Of a stretch of DNA of 43,566 nucleotides, positions 8,620 to 40,456 are shown in pieces. Under the pieces are notes generated by a model. The model was not told the origin of the DNA. It searched no databases and saw only the letters and a list, made by a program, of their open reading frames with translations. This DNA comes from Anaerolineae bacterium (GTDB lineage Bacteria; Chloroflexota; Anaerolineae; UBA4142; SHND01): positions 1 through 43,566 of the forward strand of contig JADZCJ010000071.1 of NCBI GenBank assembly GCA_020851635.1. Direction: 5' to 3'. A program made the translations under genes and the position numbers. The number at the start of each line of letters is the position of its first letter. The first letter of the stretch is position 1.

Positions 8620-9087
8620 ATGTTCAAGGGCCGAGCCTCAACAAGAAAAACTATAGCATTTCTGCAGCCCATCTCGCGGTGGCACAGCGACCAACGCGGG
8701 CAAGGGTTGCTGGAATGGACGGTCGCATTACCTCTCTTTCTGCTGTTGTGCGCGGGGATCACGTTCTACGCGTGGACGTGGTGGAATCAAGTGAGTGCAG
8801 CCGCTGCGATTCACGACGGCGTCTATATCGCTGCAATCAAACGCGGGGATATGGGCGCAGGTTATGGACGCATTCGTGAAATGCTGAATGTGTCGGTCGG
8901 TAGTTTTTCCGACCAGTACTCGATTCGGTTAACGCAATCGGGAGGAATGCGCAGCGTATCGGGGGAAATTAGCAACCCCCAGTCGGTCAAATTGCCATTC
9001 CTCGGACGAAGGTTATTTAACATTCGGGCATCAAGTTTTCAACGCGCGGAACGCTTTTATGGTGGTCCGCCGCAAGGGTGGTGGTAA
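8620..9087 (+). CDS. TadE-like pseudopilin 1
   Basis: The 155-residue protein has a long basic leader, the class III prepilin-like site SDQRGQGLLEWTVALPLFLL (about residues 23-42) and a single membrane segment, followed by a predicted extracellular domain. TadE/TadF-type pseudopilins are minor subunits that prime or regulate Tad pili. Trp instead of Tyr follows the conserved Glu, a mild departure. An AGGAGAGG site lies just upstream. It overlaps the next TadE-like gene by about 10 nt. Confidence 0.78.
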   Translation: MFKGRASTRKTIAFLQPISRWHSDQRGQGLLEWTVALPLFLLLCAGITFYAWTWWNQVSAAAAIHDGVYIAAIKRGDMGAGYGRIREMLNVSVGSFSDQYSIRLTQSGGMRSVSGEISNPQSVKLPFLGRRLFNIRASSFQRAERFYGGPPQGWW

Positions 9088-9536
9088 GCAAAGTGTCTTG
9101 GTTTCGCCGGTTGCGCCATGACCAGAGCGGACAGGGCTATATCGAGTTCATGCTTGTGCTGCCACTGTTCCTGCTTACCATCGCCGGACTGATTCTGTTC
9201 GGGCGCGTACTGTATGTCAAGCTCGCGCTCGACATGACGACCTATGATGCCTGCCGCGCAGCAGTAGAAGCGATGGATCAGACGGATGGTATTGCGCAGG
9301 GGAATGCGGCGGGAAGAAATACGTTGCACGGCTTTTTCCTGAATGCGGGCGCCGTCCGTCTCGCAATCCTGCCCCAGGGCGCCTGGGGCCGCGGCACGCG
9401 GGTTATGTGTCAGGCGAGATTCAACCTTTATGTAGGAGATATTCCCCTTGCCGGAACAATCTCAGGCAGCGGAAATGTGAATCTTGAAGCGTCCAGTTGG
9501 TCACGCATAGAGACCTGGCGTTCCTACTGGCGTTGA
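9078..9536 (+). CDS. TadE-like pseudopilin 2
   Basis: The 152-residue protein has the TadE signature: QSGQGYIEFMLVLPLFLLTI near residues 16-35, that is a class III-like cleavage site followed by a membrane helix. The extracellular part has two Cys residues that might pair. The start is uncertain: GTG at 9078 overlaps the upstream stop, while GTG at 9081 or 9093 would shorten the leader. I list 9078 because coupling by overlap is the rule here. It is a minor pilus subunit by family. Confidence 0.75.
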   Translation: MVVSKVSWFRRLRHDQSGQGYIEFMLVLPLFLLTIAGLILFGRVLYVKLALDMTTYDACRAAVEAMDQTDGIAQGNAAGRNTLHGFFLNAGAVRLAILPQGAWGRGTRVMCQARFNLYVGDIPLAGTISGSGNVNLEASSWSRIETWRSYWR

Positions 9537-9584: not shown

Positions 9585-10022
9585 ATGCTGAAACGCTGGA
9601 TTCGAGATCAACGCGGAAGTTTTTTGATTCAAACGGTCATTCTATTCCCTGTGATGATACTGCTCGTAGGGCTTGTGCTCGACGGCGGCTGGATGTATTG
9701 GCAGTATCGCCGTACGGAAGTCATGGTAAACGCGGCGGCACAAGCCGCAAGTCACGCGATTGATATCAATCATTTTCGCTCGACCGATCAAGTGCGTTTG
9801 CACCGCGGACAAGCAACAGGGATCGCCAACAACTTTATTCAATTGAATCGGCGAGGGCATATTACCCTAACCGGTGTGCGGGTGCGAGCGGATCAAATCA
9901 CTGTGAACGCGACGGCGACAATTCCAACAATCTTTTTCCGCCTTGCGGGGATTCCGTCGCTTACGGTCCGCGTCGAGGGCAAGGCATATCCCGCATTTGG
10001 AATCAATTACGAGGGCCAATAA
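9585..10022 (+). CDS. TadE/TadG-like pseudopilin 3
   Basis: The 145-residue protein has a short basic leader, DQRGSFLIQTVILFPVMILL (about residues 8-27) and one membrane helix, then a predicted extracellular domain rich in beta strands. The leader resembles the TadE/TadG group of Tad pilus proteins, but the conserved Glu at +5 is replaced (Gln), so processing by the prepilin peptidase is doubtful and it may stay membrane-anchored like TadG. It directly follows the 12-bp hairpin and its stop abuts the next ATG. Confidence 0.7.
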   Translation: MLKRWIRDQRGSFLIQTVILFPVMILLVGLVLDGGWMYWQYRRTEVMVNAAAQAASHAIDINHFRSTDQVRLHRGQATGIANNFIQLNRRGHITLTGVRVRADQITVNATATIPTIFFRLAGIPSLTVRVEGKAYPAFGINYEGQ

Positions 10023-10820
10023 ATGTCAATCAAAAGGTCGTTTGTCGAACAGGACATGTTGACGAAACGCAAGCGACTCGGTTGGTTGGGTTGGGTTACG
10101 ATTATTGTAACAGCATCTTTTCTGGTGGCGCTTGGCATTTGGGTGTGGCGCACAATGACCCAAGAACCGACGCCGTATGAAAAATCACCGACCGTTTCAA
10201 ATGGACAAGACGATGCGGCAGACACAGCAGCGCTATATAGGCTCACCATCACGCCGCAGCCATCACCAACAACGAATCCGGCTCGGGGCGAAACGACAAC
10301 GCCGTGGGTTGTTTTCCGGTCAAAGGATCCATTAGGACAAGAAATTTGGGATGCTCCGGCAGAAATCAAAGCGGCAGTAGTGAAGGATTATCTGGACGCG
10401 ATGGCTTGGACCGATTCGTTAATGTTCGATCCGGACACATTGGACGCCCGGCTCGGAGACTATTACGACGAAAAACGCCTCGCCGAAATGCGCGCCATTC
10501 TCGCGTGGGCGAGAAAAGAAAACAAGGTCGTCGCAATATCAGGTGTCAAACGTCTGCCACAGGGGACGGTTGTCAGCACATTTTCGCCCGATGGGTTGAC
10601 AGCGCGAGTGTTGGATTATCACGCTGCCGGAGAGGGGCAATTGTTTGACCTGAAAACGCGCAAGCCTATCCCGGGCGCGGCCTACCCAAATTCGATGCAT
10701 ATGGTCGAAATGACGTATGACACAAACGCGCGGCGATGGAAGATCGCGCACGAACTGATGATTTACGACCTCGAAGCAAATCAGATTCTCTGGCGGGAGG
10801 AATGGGATAGTGCGGAATAA
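10023..10820 (+). CDS. Single-pass membrane protein with VirB8/NTF2-like extracellular domain
   Basis: The 265-residue protein has a short cytosolic N-terminus, one membrane segment (about residues 23-43), a Pro/Thr-rich linker, then a domain starting AAVVKDYLDAMAW that looks like an NTF2/VirB8 fold (helix with paired aromatics, then long strands such as HMVEMTYDTNARRWKIAHEL). VirB8/TrbF proteins are bitopic scaffold parts of conjugation machines. The match is by topology and helix-strand pattern, not by a diagnostic motif. It lies at the junction of pilus and conjugation genes. The next gene starts 11 nt before its stop. Confidence 0.5.
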   Translation: MSIKRSFVEQDMLTKRKRLGWLGWVTIIVTASFLVALGIWVWRTMTQEPTPYEKSPTVSNGQDDAADTAALYRLTITPQPSPTTNPARGETTTPWVVFRSKDPLGQEIWDAPAEIKAAVVKDYLDAMAWTDSLMFDPDTLDARLGDYYDEKRLAEMRAILAWARKENKVVAISGVKRLPQGTVVSTFSPDGLTARVLDYHAAGEGQLFDLKTRKPIPGAAYPNSMHMVEMTYDTNARRWKIAHELMIYDLEANQILWREEWDSAE

Positions 10821-12015
10821 GTTGCGGTGGATGTCAATTCCAACTTTGAGTGCGTTCTTCCTATTGCTGATTTTCGTCTATGCCGCGACAGCACAAGGAA
10901 ACTGTCCGCCGGGTTGCAGCTGTTATTACGTGGATAACCAATTCATCGTGGAATGTGAGGGGAATGCTACATCCGTTCCACCAACCGGAGAACCGACAGA
11001 TTCTCCCGGTGCAACCACGGAACCAGGCGAAACGCGCGAACCGCGTGATACCCCGTCGCCAAACCAAACACCGATGCCTTCACCGACAAACTCCAATGCC
11101 ACCCAATTTTACGATCTGAATTGCGTCCCGCTCGGCGCCGGAGATTTTGGACTTGCCTGCCCGCGCAATATGTACAACATCCGCAGCGCGTGTGCCGCGA
11201 ATCTGGGCTGCTGGATCGTTTATGTGCGATGCGCGGATGGCTGTATCACTCCAACGCCAAGCCCGTCGGGTAGCGTCGGATCGCTGCCATGCGCTGATGT
11301 GAATTTTGGACAAGGAGGTATTCAGTGCACGATCGGATGGGATCGGCGTGTGTCGGCGCGAATCCCCGCAGTCCCGGTGGGTTATTTACCCTTTCCGCGT
11401 GGGATCGTGTATGACGCGATGCAGTTCAACTTGCCTCCGTTGGTTGTGCAAGGATGGCAATGCAGCAATCCGCCACTGGATGGATGGGACCCAATTGGCT
11501 GGGCACCAAGCGAAAACTACCGCAAACTCATTTTCTGCCTTCGGTGGCGCCAGGTAAAACATCCCGACCCGATACAAGACCCTTCACCCGCGTGGGCAGA
11601 GTGGACATGGGACGAGCGCCCGTGGGGACAGCCGAAAGGCGCATTGAGCTTAGAGCGCGAGACGAATCACACATATGTCACTTCCTCTGCCGAAAAACCC
11701 GTGAATGGATTGGGTGAGAGGCCAAGCTATCAAGTGCAGGTGCGGACATACTGGGTCGTCGAATGGAAAGAAAATTGGGAACGCCGCGAAGAGTATTGTG
11801 TGAGGGGCAATGCGAGCGACGTTTGCAAAGGACAAGCAGGACAGCGGAAAGAGGTACGCTGGGGCCCTGAAGCACGCGCGGGCGTAACTGATTTACGGGA
11901 ATACGGCAACGGGAATTTTTGGGCATCGAGCACGCGCATTCGAACTCCCTGGGGCGGAGAGATGAATATGCTGCCCGTGCCGGTGATCGAAGTGCAAGGC
12001 GTAATCGAAAAGTAG
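10810..12015 (+). CDS. Secreted Cys-rich protein of unknown function
   Basis: The 401-residue product starts at GTG with a strong GGGAGG site. It has a signal peptide (hydrophobic to about residue 28, cut near TAQG), then a Cys cluster (CPPGCSCYY), a Pro/Thr/Ser-rich linker (about residues 48-95), a second Cys-containing module (about 100-170) and a Trp-rich C-terminal half with little similarity to anything I know. Exported, disulfide-capable and linker-bearing, it may be an adhesin or tip protein carried by the pilus or the transfer channel. That role rests on position alone. No sortase or lipoprotein signal is seen. Confidence 0.55.
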   Translation: MRNKLRWMSIPTLSAFFLLLIFVYAATAQGNCPPGCSCYYVDNQFIVECEGNATSVPPTGEPTDSPGATTEPGETREPRDTPSPNQTPMPSPTNSNATQFYDLNCVPLGAGDFGLACPRNMYNIRSACAANLGCWIVYVRCADGCITPTPSPSGSVGSLPCADVNFGQGGIQCTIGWDRRVSARIPAVPVGYLPFPRGIVYDAMQFNLPPLVVQGWQCSNPPLDGWDPIGWAPSENYRKLIFCLRWRQVKHPDPIQDPSPAWAEWTWDERPWGQPKGALSLERETNHTYVTSSAEKPVNGLGERPSYQVQVRTYWVVEWKENWERREEYCVRGNASDVCKGQAGQRKEVRWGPEARAGVTDLREYGNGNFWASSTRIRTPWGGEMNMLPVPVIEVQGVIEK

Positions 12016-13101: not shown

Positions 13102-13494
13102 ATGAATCGAGTGTTGAAATGGATGACTGAACCGAAAAGCCGGTCCCGTGCCCTATCCGTCATGTGGGCAGCAATGATGTTCACAGTCATCGTGGCGGAC
13201 GCCTCGGCGCAGGGAGGCGATTTGGGTGGGGCAATGTCGAATCTCGCCAAACTTCTGGTGGATGCGTTGATCGCGCTGGCGGCATTGCTTTTAGCAATTG
13301 GATTCGCGACCAATTTTGTGACGGGAATGGCAGAGACCATTGCAGGGCGACCAATGGGCTTGTCGAGCACGTGGGTGCGCCTCGGTGGCATCCTCATCGC
13401 GTTTGTCGGAGCAATTTTTACGATTCAGATTGCAAACACAATTATTGACACCCTGGCAGCGTACAAAAGCACCGACTCCATTCATTTACCCTAA
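13102..13494 (+). CDS. VirB2/TrbC-like small membrane protein 2
   Basis: The 130-residue protein has a long signal peptide (about residues 20-37, likely cut after ADASAQ) and two membrane segments with a short loop, the VirB2/TrbC pattern. The segment AGRPMGLSSTWVRLGG and the following IQIANTIIDTL align with the preceding protein. A GAGGAG site precedes ATG. It probably forms, with its paralogue, a conjugation pilus or channel component in the membrane. The VirB6-like gene starts 4 nt after its stop. Confidence 0.65.
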   Translation: MNRVLKWMTEPKSRSRALSVMWAAMMFTVIVADASAQGGDLGGAMSNLAKLLVDALIALAALLLAIGFATNFVTGMAETIAGRPMGLSSTWVRLGGILIAFVGAIFTIQIANTIIDTLAAYKSTDSIHLP

Positions 13495-13498
13495 TCAC

Positions 13499-16048
13499 AT
13501 GCTGCGAAAAGCCCTTACCGTTTTGTTGGTCGTGGTGCTCTGTGCATCCGGTGTGATGCCCGCTTATGCCCAAGACCCGGAACCGCCACCCCCGCCACCG
13601 CCGCTTGATCCGGTCACTCAAATCTTTCAATACCTCATCCAGTTTCCGACGGATTCATTGGTCGAGGCATTGACGCAAGCACTGCAAGCGATTCTCACCA
13701 ATAGTATCACACCACTCGAACAGGTTTTTTCGGCATCGCTCGCGCGCTGGGTGACAACGAGTCCCGGAATATTGACTCCCGGCGGCGGAATTGTGGATGG
13801 GGTGGATGTGATGTTGCCAACCTGGAACCTCACCTCACGAATCGCCATTTTGCTCTGGCCTCTCACCCTTGCAATCACGGCAGTCGTCGCAGCGAAAGAT
13901 GTGATCACTGCGGGCCGATGGGGAATTGGCGATTTAAAGCAAGCGTTCGGAACATGGCTGTTTGCCGTGATTGCATCGGCGAGCAGTTTGTATTGGATGG
14001 ATTTGGCGAATCGTTTCGCGAACGCGACAACAGACGCGATTCTCAATCTCTCGTTTTTCGGAGCAAGCGGATTTGATCCGAATCTCTTGACAAGCATCTT
14101 GATCGGCTCTGCTGTAATGGTTTTGGGAATGACAGGACTCGGGCTGATTGTCGCAATCATCATCCTCGTCATTGGCATATCGATCCTCGCGTCACTGATT
14201 TTTCAATTTCTGGCGCGCTATGCACTTTTGTATGTTCTGGTCGCTCTTGCCCCAATCGTGATCATGCTTGGTGTGCTCCCGCCAATGCGTTGGTTCACCC
14301 TGACATGGCTTCGCGGTTTTGTAATGGTATTGGTCATTGGTCCGATCAACGCACTCTTGATGAAACTCGTAATCCTGCTGGGGGCGCGGGGCTTGTCGAG
14401 CGATCCAATCACGGCATTTGTAAATTTCATGGCAGCCGCAGGCGTGTTGTCCGCGCTGCTGGCGATCAATTACACGCTCATCCGATTTGTGTTCGGCGCG
14501 TTTGGGCAAGTGTTGGAACGCGCGGTTGGAACGGTAACTGCCGTTGGAACTTTGGCACTGGCGGCAGTCGGTGGGGTAGCCGCTGCTGGAGCCGTGGGTG
14601 CTGCTTCCGGCAGTGCGGCGAGCAGTTCGCGCGGCCTGGGTGTTGGTTTGCAAACAGCCGGTTCAATGATGGCGCGTTCCGGGGGCATCGGACGCGGGGT
14701 AGGCGGGGCCCTTTGGGGAATCGGGAATGCGCTGCGTGAGAGCGAGCGCGGGACGTCATCACCGAATGGTGCGGCTACTTCACGCCACGTGGATCACTCA
14801 CGCGGAACGAGCACAGGGCAGCAATCGAATCAAGTCACAACAGCTCCTGCAAATACATCCGCGCACTCAACACCGCCAGTTCCTGTGGCAGATGCGGAGG
14901 TACAGGGCAATCCGAGTACAAGTGTGAATCCTGGCGAAGCACAATCAAGGCGTTCGGCAAATAACGGTTCTCGAACGGCAAATAGCACACCACACTCAAG
15001 CAATCGCACATCGGCATTGCCGAATCTACCAGTTCACGACCCATCCCAAATCGAGGGGGACGATTTTAGACCGTTGAGCAATTTCATTCCAATCGTGACC
15101 CAAGATCAACCATCAACAGAGACTGGTGATAATGAAACAACACCCCCGCATGTAGCCGAACTTGAGGACAATACCTCGCAACCCGCGGTGCAAACATCGA
15201 ATAGAAGCTTTTCAAGTCGCGCACCGGAGGACTCAATCCCAAAGTTGCCGACAGGTCCGCTGACAGCCACGCAAGCGAGTACTACGAGCACACCAAACGC
15301 GGTATCACCAAACTTGGCAACTTTGACGAACGCGCGATCTTCAAACCTGGTTGGCGTGACACCACAAGCCCAATCGCTAATCAAACTGCTCGACGCGCCG
15401 CTGGGAGAACGGGTACGCGCTTTGACCGAACAATATGCGAGTCCTGCTGAACAAATGACCGCTGCGCAGGGCGCAGTTGCATCCTTGAGTGCGATTGAAG
15501 CGCATCACAATGTCGAACCGCAACTGCTTGCGGCGAGTTGGGATCAAACGATGGGTCCGATACTGACTTCTGCGCGTGAGGGTATGTCGCTCGAAACAAT
15601 GGCAAACGACGCGGGATACCAGGGAGATGTGACGCAATTCATCGGAGCGCGCGTAGAAGGAGGTTTGCTCGCCGTTCATCCTTCTTCCCGCGAAGCTCTT
15701 TTTCCGCGGGCTGACTCACCGGCGGTAAATCCCTGGCATCCGCAAATTGGACCGCATGACGTGGAAGTGGGGCAGCAATTGACAACGATGCTCGGCACAC
15801 CCACGCAGGACACTTTGAGTTTTGCGCACATCTATCACTCGCTGCGTTCGCCGGAAAGTGGCGGAGGGTGGAATGTGGGAATGGGGTTGCGTGAAGCGGC
15901 GCAACAAGTGACAACGCTTGAACCTGCGAGGCGATTGGGCGCATTGGATTCACGCTTGCATTCTCTGGAGAAACAGGGGATGGTATCGCCAAATGGAATG
16001 CGCTTGTGGCGGGTCTATCTCGCGCGCAGCCAAAATCAAAAAGGATAA
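13499..16048 (+). CDS. VirB6/TrbL-like polytopic protein with long hydrophilic tail
   Basis: The 849-residue protein has a signal peptide (MLRKALTVLLVVVLCASG, cut near AYAQ), a short Pro run and then about seven membrane segments up to about residue 360, the layout of VirB6/TrbL channel proteins. A Gly/Ala/Ser-rich stretch (about 340-410) is followed by a Ser/Thr/Asn-rich low-complexity tail (to about 620) and a folded C-terminal domain of about 230 residues that I do not recognise. Long tails of this kind are known in TrbL/VirB6 relatives. ATG at 13499 is preferred because it opens a signal peptide; longer in-frame starts overlap the upstream gene. Confidence 0.7.
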   Translation: MLRKALTVLLVVVLCASGVMPAYAQDPEPPPPPPPLDPVTQIFQYLIQFPTDSLVEALTQALQAILTNSITPLEQVFSASLARWVTTSPGILTPGGGIVDGVDVMLPTWNLTSRIAILLWPLTLAITAVVAAKDVITAGRWGIGDLKQAFGTWLFAVIASASSLYWMDLANRFANATTDAILNLSFFGASGFDPNLLTSILIGSAVMVLGMTGLGLIVAIIILVIGISILASLIFQFLARYALLYVLVALAPIVIMLGVLPPMRWFTLTWLRGFVMVLVIGPINALLMKLVILLGARGLSSDPITAFVNFMAAAGVLSALLAINYTLIRFVFGAFGQVLERAVGTVTAVGTLALAAVGGVAAAGAVGAASGSAASSSRGLGVGLQTAGSMMARSGGIGRGVGGALWGIGNALRESERGTSSPNGAATSRHVDHSRGTSTGQQSNQVTTAPANTSAHSTPPVPVADAEVQGNPSTSVNPGEAQSRRSANNGSRTANSTPHSSNRTSALPNLPVHDPSQIEGDDFRPLSNFIPIVTQDQPSTETGDNETTPPHVAELEDNTSQPAVQTSNRSFSSRAPEDSIPKLPTGPLTATQASTTSTPNAVSPNLATLTNARSSNLVGVTPQAQSLIKLLDAPLGERVRALTEQYASPAEQMTAAQGAVASLSAIEAHHNVEPQLLAASWDQTMGPILTSAREGMSLETMANDAGYQGDVTQFIGARVEGGLLAVHPSSREALFPRADSPAVNPWHPQIGPHDVEVGQQLTTMLGTPTQDTLSFAHIYHSLRSPESGGGWNVGMGLREAAQQVTTLEPARRLGALDSRLHSLEKQGMVSPNGMRLWRVYLARSQNQKG

Positions 16049-16051
16049 GCC

Positions 16052-16597
16052 ATGCAGATTCGCTTTCCGCGCAAGATACGTCTGGGTTTTCGTCCGGTCT
16101 ATGGACTGACCATCCGCCAATTGGTTTACCTCGCCCTCTTCGGCGTTGCAGGCGGTTTGATGATCCTTGCGGGTCCATTTCAAGGCGCGTCGATTCTTGT
16201 GCGCGCGTTAATCGGTGTAGCAATCATGGTTGCGGGTTTGGCGTTGGCATTTTTGCGAGTCGCGGGTTTGTCGGTGGACGAATGGCTGCCGATTGCGATC
16301 CGATATTTCGTGCGCCCGCGCAAACGTGTCTGGCGTAAGCGTGAGGCGACACGTCCAATTGTCAAAGCACCATCTCCGCCCGCGCCTGCAGTACAACCCG
16401 CCGATGTCAAACCGCGCATCAAGTTCTCGCCAAATCCGGATATTGCGCCCATCACTCAAGATCAGCGCAGAGTAGTAACCTCCGCCATCATCGCGATTGA
16501 TGCATTCATCTTGCTCGTTCTCGGCGGCGCGACACTCTATTTTCGCGAGCGCGGGTTCGCCGAGGTGCGAATAACGCTCGAACAGTTGCTGCGATAG
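16052..16597 (+). CDS. PrgI/VirB3-like membrane protein
   Basis: The 181-residue protein begins MQIRFPRKI, then has FGLT-like YGLTIRQLVYLALFG and two adjacent membrane segments (about residues 25-75), then a YFVRPRKRVWR box. This is the PrgI/VirB3 pattern, in which a short two-helix protein works with VirB4. A Pro-rich linker and a further membrane segment near the C-terminus (about 145-168) are extra. It follows the VirB6-like gene by 3 nt and precedes the VirB4 genes, with two other genes between. Confidence 0.72.
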   Translation: MQIRFPRKIRLGFRPVYGLTIRQLVYLALFGVAGGLMILAGPFQGASILVRALIGVAIMVAGLALAFLRVAGLSVDEWLPIAIRYFVRPRKRVWRKREATRPIVKAPSPPAPAVQPADVKPRIKFSPNPDIAPITQDQRRVVTSAIIAIDAFILLVLGGATLYFRERGFAEVRITLEQLLR

Positions 16598-16623: not shown

Positions 16624-17088
16624 ATGGAAGCAGTGATTTATGCGCGCTTGGGTTTGCGTGAATTGAACAAACGGGTACTTGAGCAGCGCATCGCAGAGTG
16701 TTTCAATTGGAGTACGCGGGGCAAGTTTCATGTGATTGCCACATTCACGGATCGTTCTTGCAGCGGCACAAATTTGGATCGCCCGGGCTTTACCGAAATG
16801 TGCGATTTCGCGATCAAACAGCGCACCGCAATTATCATTACCGATTTATCGCAGTTGACAACCGATCTGCGAGACGCGGCATTGGTTGCAGACGTGTTTG
16901 ATGAATTAGGCATCTCTGTCTATTCAGTAGCAAACGGTTTGCTCTCTCCACGCCAGCTCGCATCTCTCGACCCGACGATCCAGTCCGATGGCGCACCCGT
17001 CCACAGTAGTCGGCTCAAGGAGAAACCCCGGCGTTCAGGGATCCCGAAATCTGAGGGCGCCGCATCCTCACACATTCAACCAAAATAA
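16624..17088 (+). CDS. Degenerate serine-recombinase N-terminal domain protein
   Basis: The 154-residue protein looks like the catalytic domain of a serine recombinase (YAR at 7-9, DRSCSGTNLDRPGF at about 43-56, IIITDLSQLTTDLRDAALVA at about 75-94) but lacks the DNA-binding part. The nucleophile is missing: the usual Y-A-R-V-S becomes Y-A-R-L-G. The conserved Arg pair of the D-L-S-R-L-x-R-D box is also gone (Gln and Thr instead). So it should not cut DNA. It lies inside the conjugation block with a good GAGGT site and a clean reading frame, which suggests a domesticated role (for example protein or DNA binding) rather than a random fragment. Family resemblance is clear; role unknown. Confidence 0.72.
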   Translation: MEAVIYARLGLRELNKRVLEQRIAECFNWSTRGKFHVIATFTDRSCSGTNLDRPGFTEMCDFAIKQRTAIIITDLSQLTTDLRDAALVADVFDELGISVYSVANGLLSPRQLASLDPTIQSDGAPVHSSRLKEKPRRSGIPKSEGAASSHIQPK

Positions 17089-18333
17089 ATGCTCCGAATG
17101 ATCAAAATCGCCTTTTTGAGCATTCCAATGCTGTTGCTCGTTGTTGGATTCGCCGCCATTTTTTCGAGTGACTACGTGAGTGGGGTAGAGGGACAGGCAA
17201 GTGAGACTGGGACTCGAACTCTGCCGACACAAATCCCCACAGTTGTTGAAACGGAACCCAGCTCTGAGCTTCTCTCCGCAGGAGGTACCGGCAATGTTGA
17301 CTTTGGATTTGCCGAGCAAGCGGACACGGAGCGCGTCCCAATCTCAACAATTGTGCCGCTTACCACCTCTCACCCGACAACAGCTCTTTCAATCGTCGTG
17401 CAATCGGAAACCAGAAAATATGTCACGTTCGGAGACCATCGTGTGCGCTCCGATGTGGTGGACATTCGCCTGTCACAATTTCCCAAACCGGATGAGGACA
17501 ACGGGCGCGGGCTGCACTGGTTTCCCACGACTTTGCAAAGACGCGAGGTTGTGGATCGGTATGTGCCCGAACTCGTCGCGATGAACATCCGATGGTTATT
17601 GATTCTTCAAGGAATCGAGGATTGGCACCTGACCGCGAATGACTATTTGATAGACGAATTGAATGAGGAAGGAATTGTCCCAATAATGCGGCTCAACCTG
17701 AAAGTTGGATACGTCAATCCGGAGCGAGTGGGACGCGTCGTCTCGCACTATCGCGCAAAAGGCGTCCGTTATTTCCAAATCTTTAACGAGCCGAATGTGG
17801 ATCTTGAATGGGCGGATGGGCAGGTTGGGTCTCCCGAGGAGTTTTTACAGTATTGGATTCCCCTTGCCGAAATTGTGGCGCGTCATGGCGGCTTGCCCGG
17901 GATGGCGCCGCTCTCCCCTGCGGGAAATCACGCCGACGAGATTTTTCTGGAAAAGGAATTCCAAGTCTTGCTGCGCGAGAATCGGCATGACCTCATCAAC
18001 ATCATGTGGCTCTCTATTCACAATTATGGCGGGCTGGATGAAAAAGGTTTTTTACGCTACCAAACGTATGCGCGCATTTCAAGGTTCCATTTTCGGCAGG
18101 TGATTCCAATGATCGGCACAGAGGGCGGGATGGGCGACGCGCACGCTTCCGCCGATACCATCATCAGCGCTTTCGACGCAATGAAAATGCGCGAACCGTG
18201 GTTTCTGGCCTTTTGCCCCTGGTTGATGGGAAACGCGGTCGGGGGTGGGCATGATGACACCTGGGAATCGCAAGCGTGGTTTCAGCGCGGCGGTCCGCTG
18301 CCCATCGTTGCGCGCGTCAAAAAATTGGAGTGA
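17089..18333 (+). CDS. Membrane-anchored glycosidase-fold (clan GH-A-like) protein
   Basis: The 414-residue protein has an N-terminal membrane anchor (about residues 8-26), a Thr/Ser-rich linker to about residue 110 and a TIM-barrel-like domain. RYFQIFNEPNV (near 230) matches the acid/base motif of clan GH-A, and QVIPMIGTEGGMGD (near 342) supplies a candidate nucleophile Glu at the expected later strand. It may trim cell-surface or wall polysaccharide where the pilus or channel crosses, together with the M23 peptidase further on. The exact GH family and substrate cannot be told. It abuts the recombinase-like gene with no spacing. Confidence 0.65.
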   Translation: MLRMIKIAFLSIPMLLLVVGFAAIFSSDYVSGVEGQASETGTRTLPTQIPTVVETEPSSELLSAGGTGNVDFGFAEQADTERVPISTIVPLTTSHPTTALSIVVQSETRKYVTFGDHRVRSDVVDIRLSQFPKPDEDNGRGLHWFPTTLQRREVVDRYVPELVAMNIRWLLILQGIEDWHLTANDYLIDELNEEGIVPIMRLNLKVGYVNPERVGRVVSHYRAKGVRYFQIFNEPNVDLEWADGQVGSPEEFLQYWIPLAEIVARHGGLPGMAPLSPAGNHADEIFLEKEFQVLLRENRHDLINIMWLSIHNYGGLDEKGFLRYQTYARISRFHFRQVIPMIGTEGGMGDAHASADTIISAFDAMKMREPWFLAFCPWLMGNAVGGGHDDTWESQAWFQRGGPLPIVARVKKLE

Positions 18334-18339
18334 AACACC

Positions 18340-18999
18340 ATGTTTAGCACAACCAAAGCGCAATCCGGGTTGCCACCGCCAACACAAGACCATGTCCTGG
18401 TCCGTGGAATTCAGGACGCATGTATCCTTCTCAAATCAGGAGATATGGCGGCTGTGCTCGAGGTCGAGGGGATTGATATTACGCGGCTCGCGGAAGATGG
18501 GCGTATCAGCTTGCTGAGCCAATATCAGAACTTGCTCACGAGTTTGCGCTTTCCCTACCAATTTATCATCGCGCGCAAGGTACAACGCTTGGAGGAATAT
18601 CTCGATTATGTGGAGGCTGAGGCAAAAATACGCAGGCGTGAATCCCAAGAAGCATATGGCAATCACTTGTTGAGCTTTATCGAGTTTATGCAAGACGTGA
18701 TGAGACGCGTCAATCCGCAGGTGCCACTGTACCTGCTCGTGCTGCCTTATGATCCGATGACTCCGGACGAACGCATAAAAAGTGGCGGCACGTTACAGGT
18801 GGATCAATATATGCGTGGCACTCAGGAGCTGGCGCGGCGGACTGAGCATCTTGTGCGTGGGCTAACGCGACTCGGTCTGGGCACACGGCGGCTCGACGAC
18901 CACGAATTGATTGCGATTTTGCACCGTGTCTATCACCCGTCTATGCCCGATTTTTCGTTGTCGCCCGGCATGCAACTTAAAACATTCGTCGCGCGTTGA
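18340..18999 (+). CDS. VirB4 N-terminal (TraC-like) domain as a separate protein
   Basis: The 219-residue protein has the pattern of the N-terminal domain of VirB4/TraC ATPases (DHVLVRGIQDACILLKSGD, AAVLEVEGIDITRL, then a long helical region) but no P-loop. A full VirB4 with its own N-terminal domain follows 88 nt later, so this is not simply the broken-off front of that gene. It probably assembles with VirB4 and the PrgI-like protein at the inner membrane. It ends cleanly at TGA just before a repeat-rich spacer. Confidence 0.62.
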   Translation: MFSTTKAQSGLPPPTQDHVLVRGIQDACILLKSGDMAAVLEVEGIDITRLAEDGRISLLSQYQNLLTSLRFPYQFIIARKVQRLEEYLDYVEAEAKIRRRESQEAYGNHLLSFIEFMQDVMRRVNPQVPLYLLVLPYDPMTPDERIKSGGTLQVDQYMRGTQELARRTEHLVRGLTRLGLGTRRLDDHELIAILHRVYHPSMPDFSLSPGMQLKTFVAR

Positions 19000-19087: not shown

Positions 19088-20878
19088 ATGAATCTGTTAA
19101 AACATTTCAAAACAAAAAGTGCTCCACCACCCATTACGGATGATGTGCTGCACGCCGGTGCACGCGATTTGGTGGACCAACTCGCGCCGGGCGCGCTGGT
19201 GATTGGGCAAGATCGGATTCATTTGCCGGGAGAAGCGTTCGTGCGCGTGTGGTTTGTTCAAGACCTCCCGCCCCAGATGGAGCGCGGCGCGCTTGATGCG
19301 ATTTACGATTTTCCGGGCGAAATCCGCATCAGCATGTTGGTGCATCCACTCGATAAATCTGCGGTGCGCGAACAATTGCGACAGCAGCGCACGTCGCTGC
19401 ATGCTGAAGTGATTACACGCACACGGCAGGGACGCTTGCCCGACTATCTTGCCGAAGAGGAACTCGCCGAAACCGAACGTACCCTCCAGGATTTGGAAGC
19501 GAGTCATTTGCCGCCGCAAGAATTGTTGTGGGTGATTGCGCTCTATGCGCGTGATGAACATGAATTAGGAGAACAATCGCGGCGTTTGGAGGATTCGTTA
19601 CTGGATGCCGATTTGCGATTTTTTCGCGCAGCATTGCGCCAGGAGGACGCGCTCTACAGCGTGCAGCCGTTCGGGCGAAACTTTCTGGGGCATGGGCGCA
19701 ATATCACGCCCGCCGCGCTCGCCGGGATGTTTCCGTTTGCGCGACGCTTGCAAGCGGACGCGCGGGGGATTCCCTATGGGCTGGATCGCACAACGGGCAC
19801 ATGGGTTATCGTGGACGACTTTGCGTTGACCAACTCGAATCTGTTGATTCTGGGTGAACAGGGCTCGGGCAAGAGTATGTTCCTGAAATACAAGGCAACG
19901 TGGGCGGTGCTTCTTGGGATGCGTTGCTACATCCTCGATTTGGAAGGCGAATTTGAAGCGATGTGCCGAGCGCTCGGCGGTACGTATCTCGATCTGTCGC
20001 TTGCATCTCCACATCACATGAACATTTTTGATCTGAACGCCGACGAAGCCGATGCCTATCACAATGGATTACAGGATGTGTTGGGCTGGATTGGACTGGC
20101 GCTCGATCGCAAGTTGACTGGCGCGGAACGCAACTTGATTCTTATTCCTGCATACGAGCGTGTCATGAAGGAAGCAGGCATTCTGTCCGAGGAACGCGCG
20201 ACATGGAAACGCCACGCGCCCTTGCTGTCCGATTTGTACGAAGCATTGGTGAGTGATGAACGTCCGCTGGCGCAATCGCTCGCAGGCGAACTGGCTCAAT
20301 ACGCAATGGGAACCTATCGCAAAGCATTTAGCGAACGGACAAATGTCAATCCCAAATCTCCCCTCGTGGTATTTGGATTAAAAGATGTCCATCGTGATTT
20401 TCAACCGCTGCGAATGCGTCAGATACAAACCTTTATTTGGGCGAACGTGCTGGCAAAAATTCATCCGACCTTGGTGATCGTAGATGAGGCATGGCGCTGG
20501 CTGCAGCACGAAACGGCGGCAGATGATTTGGCTGAAATGGCGCGCCGCTTTCGCAAACGCTTTGCGGGCTTGCATCTCGCGACCCAGCACGGCACTGATT
20601 TCAGTTCCTCGTCGGGTGCGGTGGTGATTCGTGATACCGCGGCGATGGTCATGCTTTTCCGACAAGGGGCAGCCGGTCATCGCAAACTCGCGGATTTATT
20701 TGGGCTGAATGAGGTGGAGGCGGCAGAACTCTTGACGCTGGATCGCGGCGAGAGTGTGCTTATCAAGGGTTCGTCGCGAACGAGTTCGCAGCACATCCCA
20801 CTCTACACTGTCATTCCCCCGCTGTGGTACGCTACATGGACGACGAATCCGAGGGAGCAAATCGCGCATAGCAAATAG
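19088..20878 (+). CDS. virB4: VirB4-like conjugation ATPase
   Basis: VirB4 is the AAA+/RecA-like ATPase found in all conjugation machines; it energises assembly and transfer at the inner membrane. The 596-residue protein has an N-terminal domain with FVRVWFVQDLPPQMERGAL, a P-loop GEQGSGKSMFLKYKA (near residue 256), FILD-type CYILDLEGEFE, Walker B TLVIVDEAWRWL (near 463) and the motif TQHGTDF. The C-terminus (IAHSK) is encoded by the repeat that follows. No ribosome site is seen before the ATG, so the gene may have been shortened or re-started when the spacer repeat arrived. Function call is firm. Confidence 0.88.
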   Translation: MNLLKHFKTKSAPPPITDDVLHAGARDLVDQLAPGALVIGQDRIHLPGEAFVRVWFVQDLPPQMERGALDAIYDFPGEIRISMLVHPLDKSAVREQLRQQRTSLHAEVITRTRQGRLPDYLAEEELAETERTLQDLEASHLPPQELLWVIALYARDEHELGEQSRRLEDSLLDADLRFFRAALRQEDALYSVQPFGRNFLGHGRNITPAALAGMFPFARRLQADARGIPYGLDRTTGTWVIVDDFALTNSNLLILGEQGSGKSMFLKYKATWAVLLGMRCYILDLEGEFEAMCRALGGTYLDLSLASPHHMNIFDLNADEADAYHNGLQDVLGWIGLALDRKLTGAERNLILIPAYERVMKEAGILSEERATWKRHAPLLSDLYEALVSDERPLAQSLAGELAQYAMGTYRKAFSERTNVNPKSPLVVFGLKDVHRDFQPLRMRQIQTFIWANVLAKIHPTLVIVDEAWRWLQHETAADDLAEMARRFRKRFAGLHLATQHGTDFSSSSGAVVIRDTAAMVMLFRQGAAGHRKLADLFGLNEVEAAELLTLDRGESVLIKGSSRTSSQHIPLYTVIPPLWYATWTTNPREQIAHSK

Positions 20879-20920
20879 CGGATGGCTGATCGTTTTCGTG
20901 ATCGGTTGCTGGCTATTTGC
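20871..20920. repeat. Inverted repeat at the end of virB4
   Basis: GCAAATAGC at 20871-20879 pairs with GCTATTTGC at 20912-20920 (9 bp perfect). The left arm with its flank (20871-20886) is the inverted copy (15/16) of 19064-19079. The virB4 stop lies within the left arm, and an alternative TTG start of the M23 gene within the right arm. Confidence 0.6.
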
Positions 20921-20928
20921 GCTCGGCT

Positions 20929-21900
20929 ATGAATATTCTTGACCCCAAATCCGCGTTCGGCTGCGTTGGTGGTGCAGTGTTCTCATTCATTGGTGGATTC
21001 GCACTGCTGTTTGTTGTTCTGATTGGGCTTGTCATTGAACAGATGCCATTTGGACAGGATGCGGCGTGGGCGTGGATGACCGGCTCACTCGTCGAAAATG
21101 CTTCGTGGGTTCCCCCAGTCGGCGAGCAGCCCGTTGTGCTTGGCAGCGGGGATTGGTGTGTGACGCTCGCGCGCCAACTCTCGCCCGACGAAAGTCACCT
21201 CAACCATGGGCGCGTCTATGGCGTTGTGCGCGAGGCGAATGGAGCGTTCCTTGTGGGAACTCCGATGCGCGTCGAATGGGACGGCGGATTCATTGAACAG
21301 CCGACGGATGCGAACGGACGCTATGAATTTATCTTGAGCCCCGGGCAATATGCTGTCCGCGTGAATATAGGGGCGAGCCAACACGCCCACTTTCGCACGA
21401 ACTTAAAACAATATTTTGGACATTACACTTACCAAGTAGATTTTGTGAGAGGAAATTGTGCGGGCGCCACGGAGGTGGTCGAGCAACGCATCGCGATTCA
21501 GACGACGGGCTTTGCTTCAAACCCAAACAAACCCTCGGGCTTGCCTGTGCAAGGCATAATCACGGCGGGCTTTCACGACCCCGCGTATCTCAAACAATTT
21601 GGGCGCGAGCATGAGGGTATTGATATTGCAGTCTCGGTTGGAACGCCGGTGCAAACGACACTGGGTGGGCGTGTGATTTGGGCTGGCGAACACGGAGCAT
21701 GGGGCAAAGTGGTCGCGGTCGAGAACAGCGAGTGGATGGTCATCGTTGCCCATCTCTCGCAAGTGTTGGTGATGGAAAATGAAATTGTGCGCGTGGGAGA
21801 AGTTGTTGGGTTATCAGGAAGCAGTGGGAATTCGACAGGTCCGCATGTGCATTATGAGGTTCGGCTAAACACAGTCGCTCGCTCTCCCCAACGGTTTTAG
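20929..21900 (+). CDS. Membrane-anchored M23 peptidase with carboxypeptidase-regulatory-like domain
   Basis: The 323-residue protein has an N-terminal membrane segment (about residues 11-36), a central beta-sandwich with a carboxypeptidase-regulatory-like pattern (YGVVREANGAFLVG, then TDANGRYEFILSPGQYAVRV, about 96-140) and a C-terminal LytM/M23 domain. The zinc ligands are visible: HEGID (near 227) and HVHYE (near 305). M23 enzymes cut peptidoglycan cross-bridges; in a conjugation string the usual job is to open the wall for the channel. ATG 20929 is chosen over TTG 20917, which lies in the repeat. It ends the first rightward block, facing the leftward cassette. Confidence 0.82.
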   Translation: MNILDPKSAFGCVGGAVFSFIGGFALLFVVLIGLVIEQMPFGQDAAWAWMTGSLVENASWVPPVGEQPVVLGSGDWCVTLARQLSPDESHLNHGRVYGVVREANGAFLVGTPMRVEWDGGFIEQPTDANGRYEFILSPGQYAVRVNIGASQHAHFRTNLKQYFGHYTYQVDFVRGNCAGATEVVEQRIAIQTTGFASNPNKPSGLPVQGIITAGFHDPAYLKQFGREHEGIDIAVSVGTPVQTTLGGRVIWAGEHGAWGKVVAVENSEWMVIVAHLSQVLVMENEIVRVGEVVGLSGSSGNSTGPHVHYEVRLNTVARSPQRF

Positions 21901-21933: not shown

Positions 21934-22554
21934 TTACCGTCGCAAGTTATGTTTGATAACTACTCGAAGTTCTTGAAGAGACTGGGCCACATACTCCAAG
22001 TAGATATCATCGTTATCATCATCGTCGTCATCATCCTTAAGAGGGTCAGTTCGAGCTTCCGCCCAATCAGGCGGTCGCCGCGTGTTTTGTGCAGAAAACC
22101 CGAGCTCAATTCGCGCTTCCTGATAGCGTTTTTCATCGTCTGAGATTTCACGCCTCCAGCTATACCAAACTTCTGTTCGCTTAACACCTAATACCCTTTT
22201 CATTTTATTGACATGTCTTACTAAAACGGGAAAAATTTCCGAGATTTGCTCATGTATTGATTTATTGGGACTTGGGTCGACGTAGTATGTAGTTTCACCA
22301 CTTTTGATCTTCACCTTATGTAGATTCCAGTCAATTTGAAGGGTTGCTTCACCGACGCGCTTTCCCGTACCATTCAAGAAATAGATATGGATAGCGCTAA
22401 AATACGGTTTTTCTAGGACACCCTTCCGAATGAGACTCGCAGTTTGTTCAGGAGAATCTACAGAGAACGCTTCTACAAGTTCCCTTACCACATCGTATAA
22501 TACTTGCAAACGAACTCTAGCAACAAGCTCCGGACGAAGAATTATTTGTGACAC
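21934..22554 (-). CDS. Unknown protein with acidic Asp tract (possible HORMA-like fold)
   Basis: This 206-residue protein is not recognised. It starts at GTG with GAGGT upstream, 9 nt after the AAA+ gene. Features: a helical N-terminus, strands YFSAIHIYFLNGTG and ATLQIDWNLHKVKI, ETTYYVDPSPNKSIHEQISE, a basic stretch, then a run of seven Asp plus more (DPLKDDDDDDDNDD), encoded by a GAT-type triplet tract, and a helical end. The strand order faintly recalls bacterial HORMA proteins, which pair with AAA+ ATPases, but I cannot support this further. It is last in a leftward, AT-richer three-gene cassette. Confidence 0.55.
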   Translation of the reverse strand: MSQIILRPELVARVRLQVLYDVVRELVEAFSVDSPEQTASLIRKGVLEKPYFSAIHIYFLNGTGKRVGEATLQIDWNLHKVKIKSGETTYYVDPSPNKSIHEQISEIFPVLVRHVNKMKRVLGVKRTEVWYSWRREISDDEKRYQEARIELGFSAQNTRRPPDWAEARTDPLKDDDDDDDNDDIYLEYVAQSLQELRVVIKHNLRR

Positions 22555-22563
22555 ATTTGCACC

Positions 22564-23472
22564 TCAAGATAGTGACTTGGCAATATAGCTGCGGGGTTTA
22601 TTCTGTCTTTTGAGCGTCCCAAGCCGTATAAGCTCTCGAATCGTCGTTCCTTTTGAGTTTGATTGTATGAGATTAGTGATGTGTGGAAAATCAATGCGCC
22701 CTTCACGCTCAATAGTTTCTAATATTAATTCGTCATATAGATCATTCCGCAATTGATGAAAAAAAGCTACAGGCTCATCTTGGAACTCTGATACCAGATT
22801 GTCAATCTCCTCCAGCTCTGCAGTCGAGACATGTCCAACAAACAGATGCTTTACAATCTCAATCTTTGACTCAACATCAGGCTTCCAATCGAAGAACCAG
22901 ACCCGTCCATGCCGCGTCAGGGGCTCATAAAGATGAGTGAAGTCATTACCCGTTACTATGATGGGGGTTCTAATCGTATTGACGTCGCCAACATGCAAAG
23001 GATCATCGGCCAAGTTCATTAGCGTCCCACTAACCAGTTGCGAATTGACGGTGTAGCGTCGATCCTCATGGGTTGAAACGACACTTGTATCCAAATCATC
23101 AATCAACAAAATTGCGCGCCCGTTCTTATTCCGGAAGGCAGCCTCTTTATATGCTTCTCTGACAATAATTACTGGCTCCTTCTCATGAACACCACTGATT
23201 GTTGAACCCGAAAGGGATACGACATTAATACCAAGCTGCGAACATACCTCGCGAGTTTGTTCACTTTTGCCTTCACCCATTGGTCCTTGAATTGCAAGAA
23301 TGAGGGGGGGACGTAGGTTGCTCACCGAATTTTTTACGATGTGTAAGATTACAACATTTCGGAACTGCGGTGGCAAATAAAAATTAGGAGTAGCCTTTAA
23401 CGTCGGCGCTAATATACTCCAATTACCTTCCAAAAAAGGAAGTTGAGTACTACCAATACCCGGTTGATCCAT
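22564..23472 (-). CDS. Rubisco-activase-like AAA+ ATPase
   Basis: The 302-residue protein is an AAA+ ATPase with Walker A GPMGEGKS (63-70), Walker B AILLIDDLD (120-128), sensor-1 region IIVTGNDF (171-178) and an Arg-finger-like LTRHGR (185-190). The stretch YTVNSQLVSGTLMNLADDP (140-158) and the sensor region closely follow Rubisco activase, whose versions read like TQYTVNNQMVNATLMNIAD and VPIIVTGNDF. No Rubisco gene is near, so it probably remodels another partner, perhaps one of its two cassette neighbours. Fold is sure; role unknown. Confidence 0.75.
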   Translation of the reverse strand: MDQPGIGSTQLPFLEGNWSILAPTLKATPNFYLPPQFRNVVILHIVKNSVSNLRPPLILAIQGPMGEGKSEQTREVCSQLGINVVSLSGSTISGVHEKEPVIIVREAYKEAAFRNKNGRAILLIDDLDTSVVSTHEDRRYTVNSQLVSGTLMNLADDPLHVGDVNTIRTPIIVTGNDFTHLYEPLTRHGRVWFFDWKPDVESKIEIVKHLFVGHVSTAELEEIDNLVSEFQDEPVAFFHQLRNDLYDELILETIEREGRIDFPHITNLIQSNSKGTTIRELIRLGTLKRQNKPRSYIAKSLS

Positions 23473-23488
23473 ATCGTATCGTAAAGCC

Positions 23489-23896
23489 TCAGCTTTTCTT
23501 CGATTTAGTATATCGCTTATCTTCGAGAATCAAGCGGTCTTCAGGACGGACTTTCTTTGTCAAATCAATCGCTAAAGTCTCCCAATATTCATCAGAAAAG
23601 GTCTCTGGATTCTGGTCAGCCTCTTCTCCACCCTGACTCTGCAGGACCATTGGTATCGTACCCTGTATCGTAATGGGAGGTGTCTGATTTCTGCTGATAT
23701 TATCGGGAATCCTGCTAGATTCAGGTTTCTCAGTCTTCAATTGGTTTAGCGATTCGCGCTCATTCACTACATTGATAATTACAACGGGCTGTGGCGGTTG
23801 AGCAACTTGTTGTGATTGGGGTTTCCCAAGCTTGTCAATTGCGACGCCGAATATTTTGGCGATTACACTTGGAATTATTTCAGTGAATATTCCCAT
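23489..23896 (-). CDS. Unknown small protein with hydrophobic N-terminal helix
   Basis: The 135-residue product starts MGIFTEIIPSVIAKIFG, an amphipathic or membrane-seeking helix, then a Gln/Pro-rich linker, a beta-prone segment (PVVIINVVNERE at about residues 37-48), a disordered Pro/Ser/Asn-rich middle and a charged helical C-terminus. ATG at 23896 follows AAGGAGA at 6 nt and is preferred over an ATG 42 nt upstream that has no site. It is first in the leftward cassette with the AAA+ ATPase. No family is recognised. A membrane-directed helix beside an AAA+ regulator would suit an effector or receptor, but that is conjecture. Confidence 0.6.
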   Translation of the reverse strand: MGIFTEIIPSVIAKIFGVAIDKLGKPQSQQVAQPPQPVVIINVVNERESLNQLKTEKPESSRIPDNISRNQTPPITIQGTIPMVLQSQGGEEADQNPETFSDEYWETLAIDLTKKVRPEDRLILEDKRYTKSKKS

Positions 23897-23971
23897 TTGG
23901 TTCTCCTTCGCAAATATATTCCCCTGCGAATGATACATTATGAATTCTATCAGTTCGCAGTTGTTGCGTCA

Positions 23972-29600: not shown

Positions 29601-31739
29601 ATGCCCAACCGTCTAATTGGAGAGAGCAGTCCGTATCTTCTCAAGCATGCACACAATCCGGTGGACTGGTTTCCGTGGGGACCAGAAGCGCTCGATGCTG
29701 CCAGGCGTCAAGATAAACCTATCTTTTTGAGTATAGGTTATTCGAGTTGTCATTGGTGTTCCGTTATGGAAGACGAATCGTTTGTTGACGAGACCACCGC
29801 GCGCTTTATGAACGCGAATTTTGTGAATATCAAGGTGGACCGTGAAGAGCGACCAGACCTAGATTCGATTTATATGAATGCAGTCGTCGCCATGACGGGA
29901 CAAGGTGGGTGGCCCATGAGTGTGTTTTTGACGCCGGACGGCAAACCGTTTTATGGGGGAACGTATTATCCGAAAACGCGGCGCTATGGGATGCCCGCGT
30001 TCATGGATGTGCTGCAGGGGATTGCGAAGGCTTGGGAAAACCAGCGCTTGGATGTGGAACAGAACGGCCTACAGATGCAGCAAGCGCTGTCCGAAGGAGG
30101 AGTGCCGCGCGGCGCGGATGAAATGCCATTGGACAAGCGGACGCTTGAGCTCGCGCTGAACAGCCTGGCACGTTCTTTTGACACAGACGAAGGCGGTTGG
30201 GGTGGCGCGCCGAAATTTCCACAGCCGATGACGCTTGAATTTTTGATACGGACGTATGCGGAAAAGCCCGATGACCTTGTTTTGAAAATGATCACGCTGA
30301 CGCTGCACAAGATGGCGCGCGGCGGGATGTATGACCAGTTAGGTGGTGGCTTTCATCGCTATTCTACTGACGATCATTGGGGAACTCCCCATTTTGAGCG
30401 GATGCTATATGATAACGGACAGCTCGCGCGCGTCTATCTCCACGCGTATCAAATCACCGGCAATGAATTTTACAAACGGGTGACGACCGAGATTTTGGAT
30501 TACGTGGTTCGCGAAATGACGTCGCCCGAAGGCGGATTCTACTCGTCGCAGGATGCGGACTCGGAGGGGCACGAGGGCAAATTCTTTGTGTGGACGCCGG
30601 AAGAGATACGGAGCGCGCTGGGCGGCAGCACGTCGGGGCTGTTGATTGTGTCGAAATCGAAGCAGGACGTGAGCGACACGGCGCTGTTCATGGATGCGTA
30701 TGGGGTGACGGAGCGCGGGAATTTTGAAGGCAAGAACATTTTGCACCGGACGCGGGATACGGATGTGCTGGCGGAGATGCACCGAATGAGTGGGGATGAG
30801 GTTGAGCGCAAGTTAGACCAAGCGCGCAGCAAGTTGTTTGCAGCGCGAGAGCGGCGGATCAAGCCCGCACGCGATGAAAAGATATTGACGGGGTGGAATG
30901 GGTTGATGCTGGCGGCGTTTGCGGAGGCGGCGCGGGTGTTGGGAAGAAGTCAGTATTCAGTAGCCAGTAGTCAGATGGAAGGCAGTCGTCAGGATGTAGT
31001 GAAGGGTGCGCGATACGCGGAGATTGCAAAGCGCAATGCGGATTTTCTATTGGCGAATTTGCGCGATGAGAACGGACGACTCAAGCGGTCGTATAAGGAC
31101 GGGCAGGCGCGGTTGAATGGGTATTTGGAAGATTATGCGAATCTGGCGGAGGGGCTACTGGCGCTGTACGAGACGACGTTCGAGGAAAAATACTGGGTGG
31201 CGGCGCGGGAATTGGCGGATGTGATGTTGGAGCATTTTACCGACCCGCGCGGCGGGTTCTTTGACACGAGCGACGATCATGAAGAACTGGTCGTGCGTCC
31301 CAAAGATGTGCAGGACAATGCGACGCCGTCCGGTGGGGCAATGGCGACGCTGGTGCTGTTCAAGTTGGGGGCGTATATGGGCGGGGGAAAATATGTAGAA
31401 GCGGCGGAGAGGGCGGTGGGACCGTTGCAGCCCGCGCTGGCACAAGCGCCGATGGGGTTTGCATGGTGGTTGTGTGGGTTGGAGTTTGAGTTGGCGCCAC
31501 CGAAAGAGATTGCAATCGTGGGTGAGGGAGCACAACCGCTGCTGGACGTGGTATTTGGGGAGTATCGTCCGAATCAGGTGGTGGCGTGGAAGCGGGACGG
31601 GGATGAGTCTGCGATCCCGCTTCTTGAGTACCGCGAAACAAAGGATGGTAAGGCGACGGCATATATTTGTCAGAATTTCGCGTGTCAGATGCCGACGACA
31701 GACCCGGAGGCTCTAGCAAAACAATCCCAAGTCCAATAG
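29601..31739 (+). CDS. DUF255 thioredoxin-fold protein (YyaL/SPATA20 type)
   Basis: The 712-residue protein begins with the family signature [20 protein letters not shown] and the thioredoxin-like [18 protein letters not shown] with the CxxC pair, then [20 protein letters not shown], followed by a long alpha/alpha-barrel resembling glycan-epimerase or glucoamylase folds. This is the YyaL/SPATA20 family, widespread and of unclear biochemical role. It is probably ordinary chromosome beyond the mobile region. One oddity: around residues 449-468 it carries [15 protein letters not shown], encoded by a stretch that looks like a scattered intergenic repeat inserted in frame. A purine-rich AGGAAACAGG site precedes the ATG. 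Confidence 0.88.
30948..31004 (+). repeat. In-frame insertion of a 'CAGTATTCAGTAG'-type repeat in the DUF255 gene
   Basis: AGTCAGTATTCAGTAGCCAG and the following AGTAGTCAG are internally repetitive (AGTCAG/AGTAG units) and unlike the GC-rich codons on either side. Strings of this kind are familiar as scattered intergenic repeats in several phyla. It adds about 19 codons without breaking the frame. Confidence 0.6.
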
Positions 31740-36720: not shown

Positions 36721-36794
36721 ATCAAACTAACCGTTGATAAAACGACTTGTGCATGAGTGGGGATTCTGTATCCTCGATGTAGAGAAAAATGGCG

Positions 36795-36823
36795 GTTGAT
36801 ACCTATCAACGGTTGCTTATAAT
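36795..36823 (+). promoter_or_regulatory. Promoter with overlapping dyad for the rightward STAND operon
   Basis: TTGATA (36796-36801) and TATAAT (36818-36823) are separated by 16 bp. A perfect dyad GTTGAT-ACCT-ATCAAC (36795-36810) overlaps the -35 box, and CCGTTGAT recurs near 36731, so a repressor site is likely. The leader to the ATG at 36914 is about 85 nt. Confidence 0.55.
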
Positions 36824-36913
36824 ACACAAAATGCGACACCGCTCAACAATTGAAAGCGCAAGCAAGCGTATTCTCGGATAGGGTTCCTGTAGAGAAACTG
36901 GGAGCAAAATCAA

Positions 36914-38155: not shown

Positions 38156-38216
38156 GACGAACTGGCATAGTTGGACCTAGAAGCGAGTCGCGCAGAGCAT
38201 CAAACTGCACCAACGG

Positions 38217-38244
38217 TTGACACAACGGAATCGTAGCAGATAAT
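38217..38244 (+). promoter_or_regulatory. Promoter upstream of the DUF4062 gene
   Basis: TTGACA (38217-38222) and GATAAT (38239-38244), 16 bp apart, lie in the 143-bp gap after the TPR gene. The flank ACGGTTGACA resembles the CGGTTGAT half-site of the promoter at 36795, so both may respond to the same regulator. Confidence 0.45.
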
Positions 38245-38298
38245 TACAGTCGAAGGATCTTCGCTACTTGATGAAATTCATGGGAGGCGGATCAACAT

Positions 38299-40432: not shown

Positions 40433-40456
40433 TATCCAAACAATCATGGAGCTGAC

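Follow-up and report, generated by a model that had tools for sequence, protein, structure and literature searches.

What is a serine recombinase that has lost its serine doing inside a block of conjugation genes? The question is raised by a gene at 16624-17088 on the plus strand of the 43.6 kb contig analysed here (hereafter, the window), which starts with ATG, runs as a clean frame of 154 amino acids, is preceded by a plausible ribosome site (GAGGTAGAGC-ATG) and has a GC3 of 0.55, as in the neighbouring genes. Its surroundings form a Tad-like/T4SS operon, with Pfam matches for PrgI and a VirB4-like protein, in which only 26 bp separate it from the PrgI gene, and its TAA is followed without a gap by the ATG of the gene that starts at 17089. 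The features concerned are the following, with identities referring to L019, the orthologous locus of another genome.

13340-16048, plus strand: large membrane protein of the transfer operon, with no Pfam match, whose product we take to be TrbL-like.
16052-16597, plus strand: PrgI-like T4SS protein, directly upstream of the pseudo-recombinase (PF12666, E 7e-9; 67% identical in L019).
16624-17088, plus strand: pseudo-recombinase, a Ser-less and core-only serine recombinase of 154 aa (PF00239 profile match, alignment, AlphaFold, Foldseek).
16624-16977, plus strand: conserved catalytic-core fold of that protein, residues 1-118 (pN/pS 0.36 against L019; AlphaFold pLDDT).
16978-17085, plus strand: diverged tail that replaces helix E and the DNA-binding domain (pN/pS 0.74; predicted without structure, pLDDT <50 at residues 119-153).
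17089-18333, plus strand: glycosidase-like ORF (label from reading the sequence, no Pfam family at cut-off; 65% identical in L019).
18340-18999, plus strand: transfer-operon protein upstream of VirB4 (weak TraC match, PF11130, E 0.029, below cut-off; 82% identical in L019).
19088-20878, plus strand: VirB4-like ATPase (PF19044, TraG P-loop, E 7.3e-13; 91% identical in L019).
20917-21900, plus strand: M23 peptidase of the transfer block (PF01551, E 2.3e-23).

Two further stretches of the window were seen around this block. Inserted between the M23 and the TraG-like genes are three minus-strand genes (21934-23938), one of them encoding an AAA ATPase, with a low GC3 (0.38-0.43 vs about 0.55-0.6 around). 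The stretch at 35512-43183, beside the transfer block, holds TPR proteins (35512-36720 and 36914-38155) in a row with their neighbours and an NB-ARC/EAD10 protein with a HATPase_c_4 match (40457-43183), and is presumably a conflict or defence cluster.

The resolvase catalytic-domain fold of the window protein is indicated both by PF00239 (E 1.9e-12, 48 bits for a cut-off of 23.3, residues 3-106 aligned to profile positions 1-103 of 145) and by Foldseek, whose top match to the protein model is the catalytic domain of the TP901-1 integrase (E 4.6e-8); phmmer also retrieves the γδ resolvase 2gm5 (E 2.4e-4). The AlphaFold model, built on an alignment of seven rows that does not include the closest relatives, shows a confident α/β core (block means of pLDDT of at least 75 to residue 110), and its pLDDT falls below 50 at residues 119-153. 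For the active site we take the numbering of γδ resolvase (S10, D67, R68, R71, etc.) to apply to the window protein. According to the alignments, the nucleophile S10 is replaced by Gly (as it also is in L002), D67 by Ser, R68 by Gln and R71 by Thr, and Y6, R8, D36 and R45 are retained; the Bxb1 equivalents of the active-site residues are listed as S10, R8, D81, R82 and R85 (PMC12884075). Helix E is missing, the profile match ending at position 103 of 145, where this helix begins, and no DNA-binding domain, whether an HTH or a Recombinase domain with a Zn ribbon, was found in the protein, PF00239 being its sole Pfam family. The initial annotation had described a catalytically dead serine-recombinase domain inside a conjugation block, with the fold signature kept, the nucleophilic Ser and the Arg pair replaced, the DNA-binding half missing and a clean frame behind a good ribosome site, and all of this is confirmed here, with the loss of D67 in addition. 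As judged from sequence, the protein is thus a member of a known family by its fold and a non-member by its catalysis.

Is such a gene more than an accident of one genome? Among six family genomes searched (its own included), one other, the congener G005, carries an orthologue (contig C10, L019 6355-6795; 64% identity over residues 1-118). It lies at the same junction between PrgI and the glycosidase-like gene, with the same neighbours and 27 bp from PrgI, and is likewise core-only and devoid of S10, D67, R68 and R71, so that the Ser had very likely been lost before the two diverged. Since pS between the two genes is 0.69, i.e., near saturation, pN/pS alone is given: it amounts to 0.36 for the core (bootstrap 0.25-0.48, 0 of 2000 replicates reaching 1) and to 0.74 for the tail (0.49-1.13, 157 of 2000 reaching 1, on 26 aligned tail codons), and for scale to 0.30 for PrgI, 0.30 for the next ORF and 0.09 for the VirB4-like gene. 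Purifying selection on the core is also seen in a second, separate pair, formed by the short Ser-less relatives of L020 and L021, with a pN/pS of 0.46 (0.28-0.74), compared with 0.09 for the large serine recombinase (LSR) of that pair. These comparisons support the view that the dead core has been retained. The orthologue and the purifying selection sought by the initial annotation were therefore both found, and its proposal of a retained, repurposed function is supported as to the retention, the repurposing being putative. An intact recombinase at this place would have pointed to a pseudogene, and the only relative found there, that of L019, is equally dead and core-only.

A profile made from six Ser-less short proteins (and thus leaning to such proteins) was run on 396 genomes of the class, and it retrieved 20 frames of less than 200 aa, 11 without the Ser and nine with it, four of the latter running off a contig; the Ser is kept in all 41 rows of at least 200 aa in the recombinase alignment. 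In a tree computed without the catalytic columns (59 rows, L007, L008, the short protein of L086 and L095 having been removed for their long or odd branches), the window protein, its orthologue and five other short proteins come together in a clade of seven (99/95), all of them Ser-less, core-only and from the same order. A first tree, of 63 rows and with the catalytic columns kept, grouped only the window pair and two of these proteins (96/88) and left the other three unresolved; L172 and L177 are in neither tree. From these topologies, the window protein likely belongs to the seven-row clade. Searches in other collections gave little more: with the window protein as query, plasmids and phages yielded weak matches only (<60% identity, 12 and nine records), viral contigs one weak match and genome contigs two. 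The alignment as query gave two matches in viral contigs (L177 and L178), and the short protein of L172 gave none there. A search of 400 genomes of the phylum (E up to 1e-18) returned no further clade member among the matches listed, the sole further short frame among them being that of L172.

The relatives point to a partner. All five other clade members adjoin an LSR on the same strand, at distances from 9 to about 620 bp: gaps of 31 to 44 bp separate the short genes of L020, L021 and L023 from a downstream LSR, the gap is 9 bp in L085, likewise with the LSR downstream, and in L022 the order is reversed, with about 620 bp between the LSR end and the short gene that follows. The LSRs of L085 and L022 belong to subfamilies other than that of the former three. 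An HTH_17 gene, in each case above the Pfam cut-off, is also found near all five, on the opposite strand in L085, and its product in L022 additionally matches an excisionase model, below the cut-off of the latter. Outside the clade, Ser-less cores lie beside an LSR in L086 and L087, the short gene of L172 (from another class of the phylum) overlaps the LSR start by 8 bp and that of the near-identical viral-collection contigs L177 and L178 overlaps the LSR end; for the Ser-less short genes of L095 and L096 no LSR was found within the few kilobases fetched. Counting L177 and L178 once, nine of the 13 Ser-less short genes examined adjoin an LSR. In the tree without catalytic columns, the short protein of L087 pairs with the LSR encoded next to it (100/94), which implies that this core stems from a duplication of its own in which the Ser was lost, and hence that the arrangement arose more than once. 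As for partners of the window protein, the initial annotation looked to VirB4 or the PrgI-like protein, for which position is the sole argument, and the relatives suggest an LSR instead.

It was also observed that the HTH_17, Ser-less short and LSR genes of L020 (8500-12300) and L021 (2520-6340) form a compact conserved unit, found in two genera with 86% identity along 3.8 kb, which may be a small mobile element. In L020, the HTH_17 gene is at 9035-9241, the short gene at 9761-10132 and the LSR gene at 10177-11955.

The explanation that we favour, tentatively and as a plausible one rather than a probable one, is that the gene encodes a serine-recombinase pseudoenzyme which came from the LSR-linked accessory clade, was moved into the transfer operon and modulates an LSR by protein contact. 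It would descend from accessory proteins that sister lineages encode beside an LSR and a small, excisionase-like HTH_17 protein. LSRs act as dimers that cut with Ser10, and the S10A mutation of the C. difficile LSR CD1231 abolished recombination (PMC5025042), so that Ser-less cores should not cut. Helix E, in turn, forms much of the dimer and tetramer interface (PMC9943657, PMC3556126). Since the short proteins lack this main dimer surface, ordinary heterodimers are unlikely; since they keep the core on which the helix packs, they could occupy the surface of a partner. The dead core would then contact the catalytic or the helix-E surface of the LSR, the free core occupying the helix E or the core surface of its partner, and this contact would block or bias the assembly of the LSR dimer or of the synaptic complex, with integration or excision being controlled without any DNA cutting. 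DNA binding could be brought in by the HTH_17 protein in the LSR-linked relatives of the same order. A gene placed in the transfer operon would, moreover, have its product made when the transfer genes are read, so that the control protein would rise with transfer. We infer the LSR contact, the direction of its effect and the coupling to transfer from this comparison with the relatives. A broader proposition, possible but doubtful, is that, throughout bacteria, LSRs have repeatedly gained dedicated control subunits in the form of Ser-less core-only paralogues, one of which lies here in a conjugation operon and ties the control of the integrase to transfer.

Which LSR might this be? The only other PF00239 gene of the genome encodes an LSR on another contig, C45, of the same subfamily as those beside the short genes of L020, L021 and L023, and both genomes with the pseudo-recombinase hold an LSR of this subfamily. 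Several points speak against control of an LSR, nonetheless. The window contains no LSR, and no HTH_17 gene beside the pseudo-recombinase; the 14.8 kb contig of L019 gave no match to either, and both neighbours are thus present in five of the seven clade members, the window gene and that of L019 being the exceptions. The window lacks the attachment arms inferred for the C45 LSR; G004 possesses a close LSR, with 85% identity along most of its length, but no pseudo-recombinase gene; the latter is known in its operon place from two genomes only; and the first tree supports the grouping of only four of the seven clade rows.

The surroundings of the C45 LSR were observed in their own right. C45 carries a yyaL-like (DUF255) gene broken in two at about codon 260 (G000:C45 18303-20706, L128 and L129), with the LSR directly at its N-terminal half, as is also the case in G004:C162, and the C45 flank matches that of the yyaL-like gene in four congeners. 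This gene looks like the attachment site of the LSR. Four orphan C-terminal yyaL-like halves exist elsewhere in the genome (L145 2194, L146 4833, L147 6857 and L148 7568, on G000 contigs C17, C142, C3 and C72). In front of each stands the same 20-base arm, which is exact in three cases and has two mismatches in the fourth (none in the control). Taken together with the LSR-side arm, it suggests an imperfect palindrome with TTTGAAA at its centre, such as an attP site would be expected to have. An intact extra yyaL-like copy lies in the window at 29601-31739, beside the T4SS block. A link between the block and the LSR through this shared attachment gene was tried on account of that copy, and it could not be established, since the arms of the LSR are absent from the window.

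The alternative that survives best, although rather unlikely, is that the dead core from the LSR-linked family has been taken over by the transfer machinery, for which it might be, for example, a regulator or an assembly factor working with PrgI, VirB4 or the glycosidase-like protein, and that no LSR is involved. It would account for the tight operon place kept in two genomes (in the window, no base lies between its stop and the start that follows), for the loss of the Arg pair beyond that of the LSR-linked relatives, for a contig without an LSR and for a constraint on the core close to that on PrgI and the next ORF. Nevertheless, none of 13 other related transfer operons (14 other PrgI matches minus G215) carries a pseudo-recombinase after PrgI, and two of these gene-less operons do hold the glycosidase-like gene. 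The gene is hence an addition to the operon, seen so far in one genus, and the transfer machinery does not need it, for which reason a role required by that machinery was rejected.

Alternatively, but improbably, the protein might be a decoy that binds and poisons the LSRs of competing elements, shielding the resident element or its attachment site. The several split copies of one attachment gene in this genome, with arms of one LSR element family, make competition between LSR elements plausible, and a decoy would need no cognate LSR on its contig. Against this, the relatives have an LSR encoded next to them, and its proximity suggests that it is their own enzyme that they control. Very improbable is a remnant of a recombinase on its way to being lost: the active site is more eroded than that of the relatives and the tail shows no measurable constraint, but the core is under purifying selection in every bootstrap replicate, the frame remained open in only 1% of the neutral simulations over a single lineage of the length required and the orthologue is equally dead, and decay was rejected on the core selection and the orthologue. 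It is scarcely credible that the protein continues to act on DNA through a different nucleophilic residue, R8, D36 and R45 remaining but D67, R68, R71, helix E and the DNA-binding domain being gone.

How does the favoured explanation, i.e., an LSR-controlling pseudoenzyme, relate to known systems? LSRs such as Bxb1, TP901-1 and C. difficile CD1231 have the same core domain, PF00239; unlike them, the window protein has neither the nucleophile nor the D/R/R triad, helix E, the Recombinase domain or the zinc ribbon. In its proposed role it resembles the directionality factors of LSRs, small LSR-contacting proteins of which C. difficile CD1234, described as a separate RDF interacting with the LSR (PMC5025042), is an example, and the relatives of the window protein do adjoin an LSR; unlike CD1234, the candidate proposed here is a dead catalytic core. 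IS607-family TnpA joins an HTH and a catalytic core in that order, its DNA-binding domain being on the N-terminal side, and the relatives of the window protein match the IS607 model below its cut-off. TnpA, however, is one active protein with its Ser, whereas the LSR-linked relatives are Ser-less and encoded as separate genes (the HTH_17 gene and the dead core of these relatives being a split parallel to TnpA), and the window gene has no adjoining HTH_17. The best NCBIfam match of the window protein is the resolvase-like YneB family (NF049883, E 7.3e-5), a weak one (22 bits vs a cut-off of 175, over positions 2-103 of 211); YneB is a resolvase-like protein outside a recombination setting.

To our knowledge, the switching of a serine integrase between integration and excision has been explained by only a few small proteins, and the window protein may represent a kind of integrase-control protein that has gone unrecognised. 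In the open-licence literature covered here, no description of a Ser-less core-only partner beside an LSR was found, and as a recurrent arrangement it appears undescribed within that literature. A 2026 integrase survey, for its part, excluded integrases judged truncated or without catalytic domains (PMC12884075), and surveys of this kind may drop core-only proteins as truncated. The cassettes of HTH_17, dead core and LSR of the relatives of the same order make the idea of control testable in E. coli. Should Ser-less cores prove to be control subunits, a clue to the regulator could be read directly from many integrase loci, which would be of immediate use in genome engineering.
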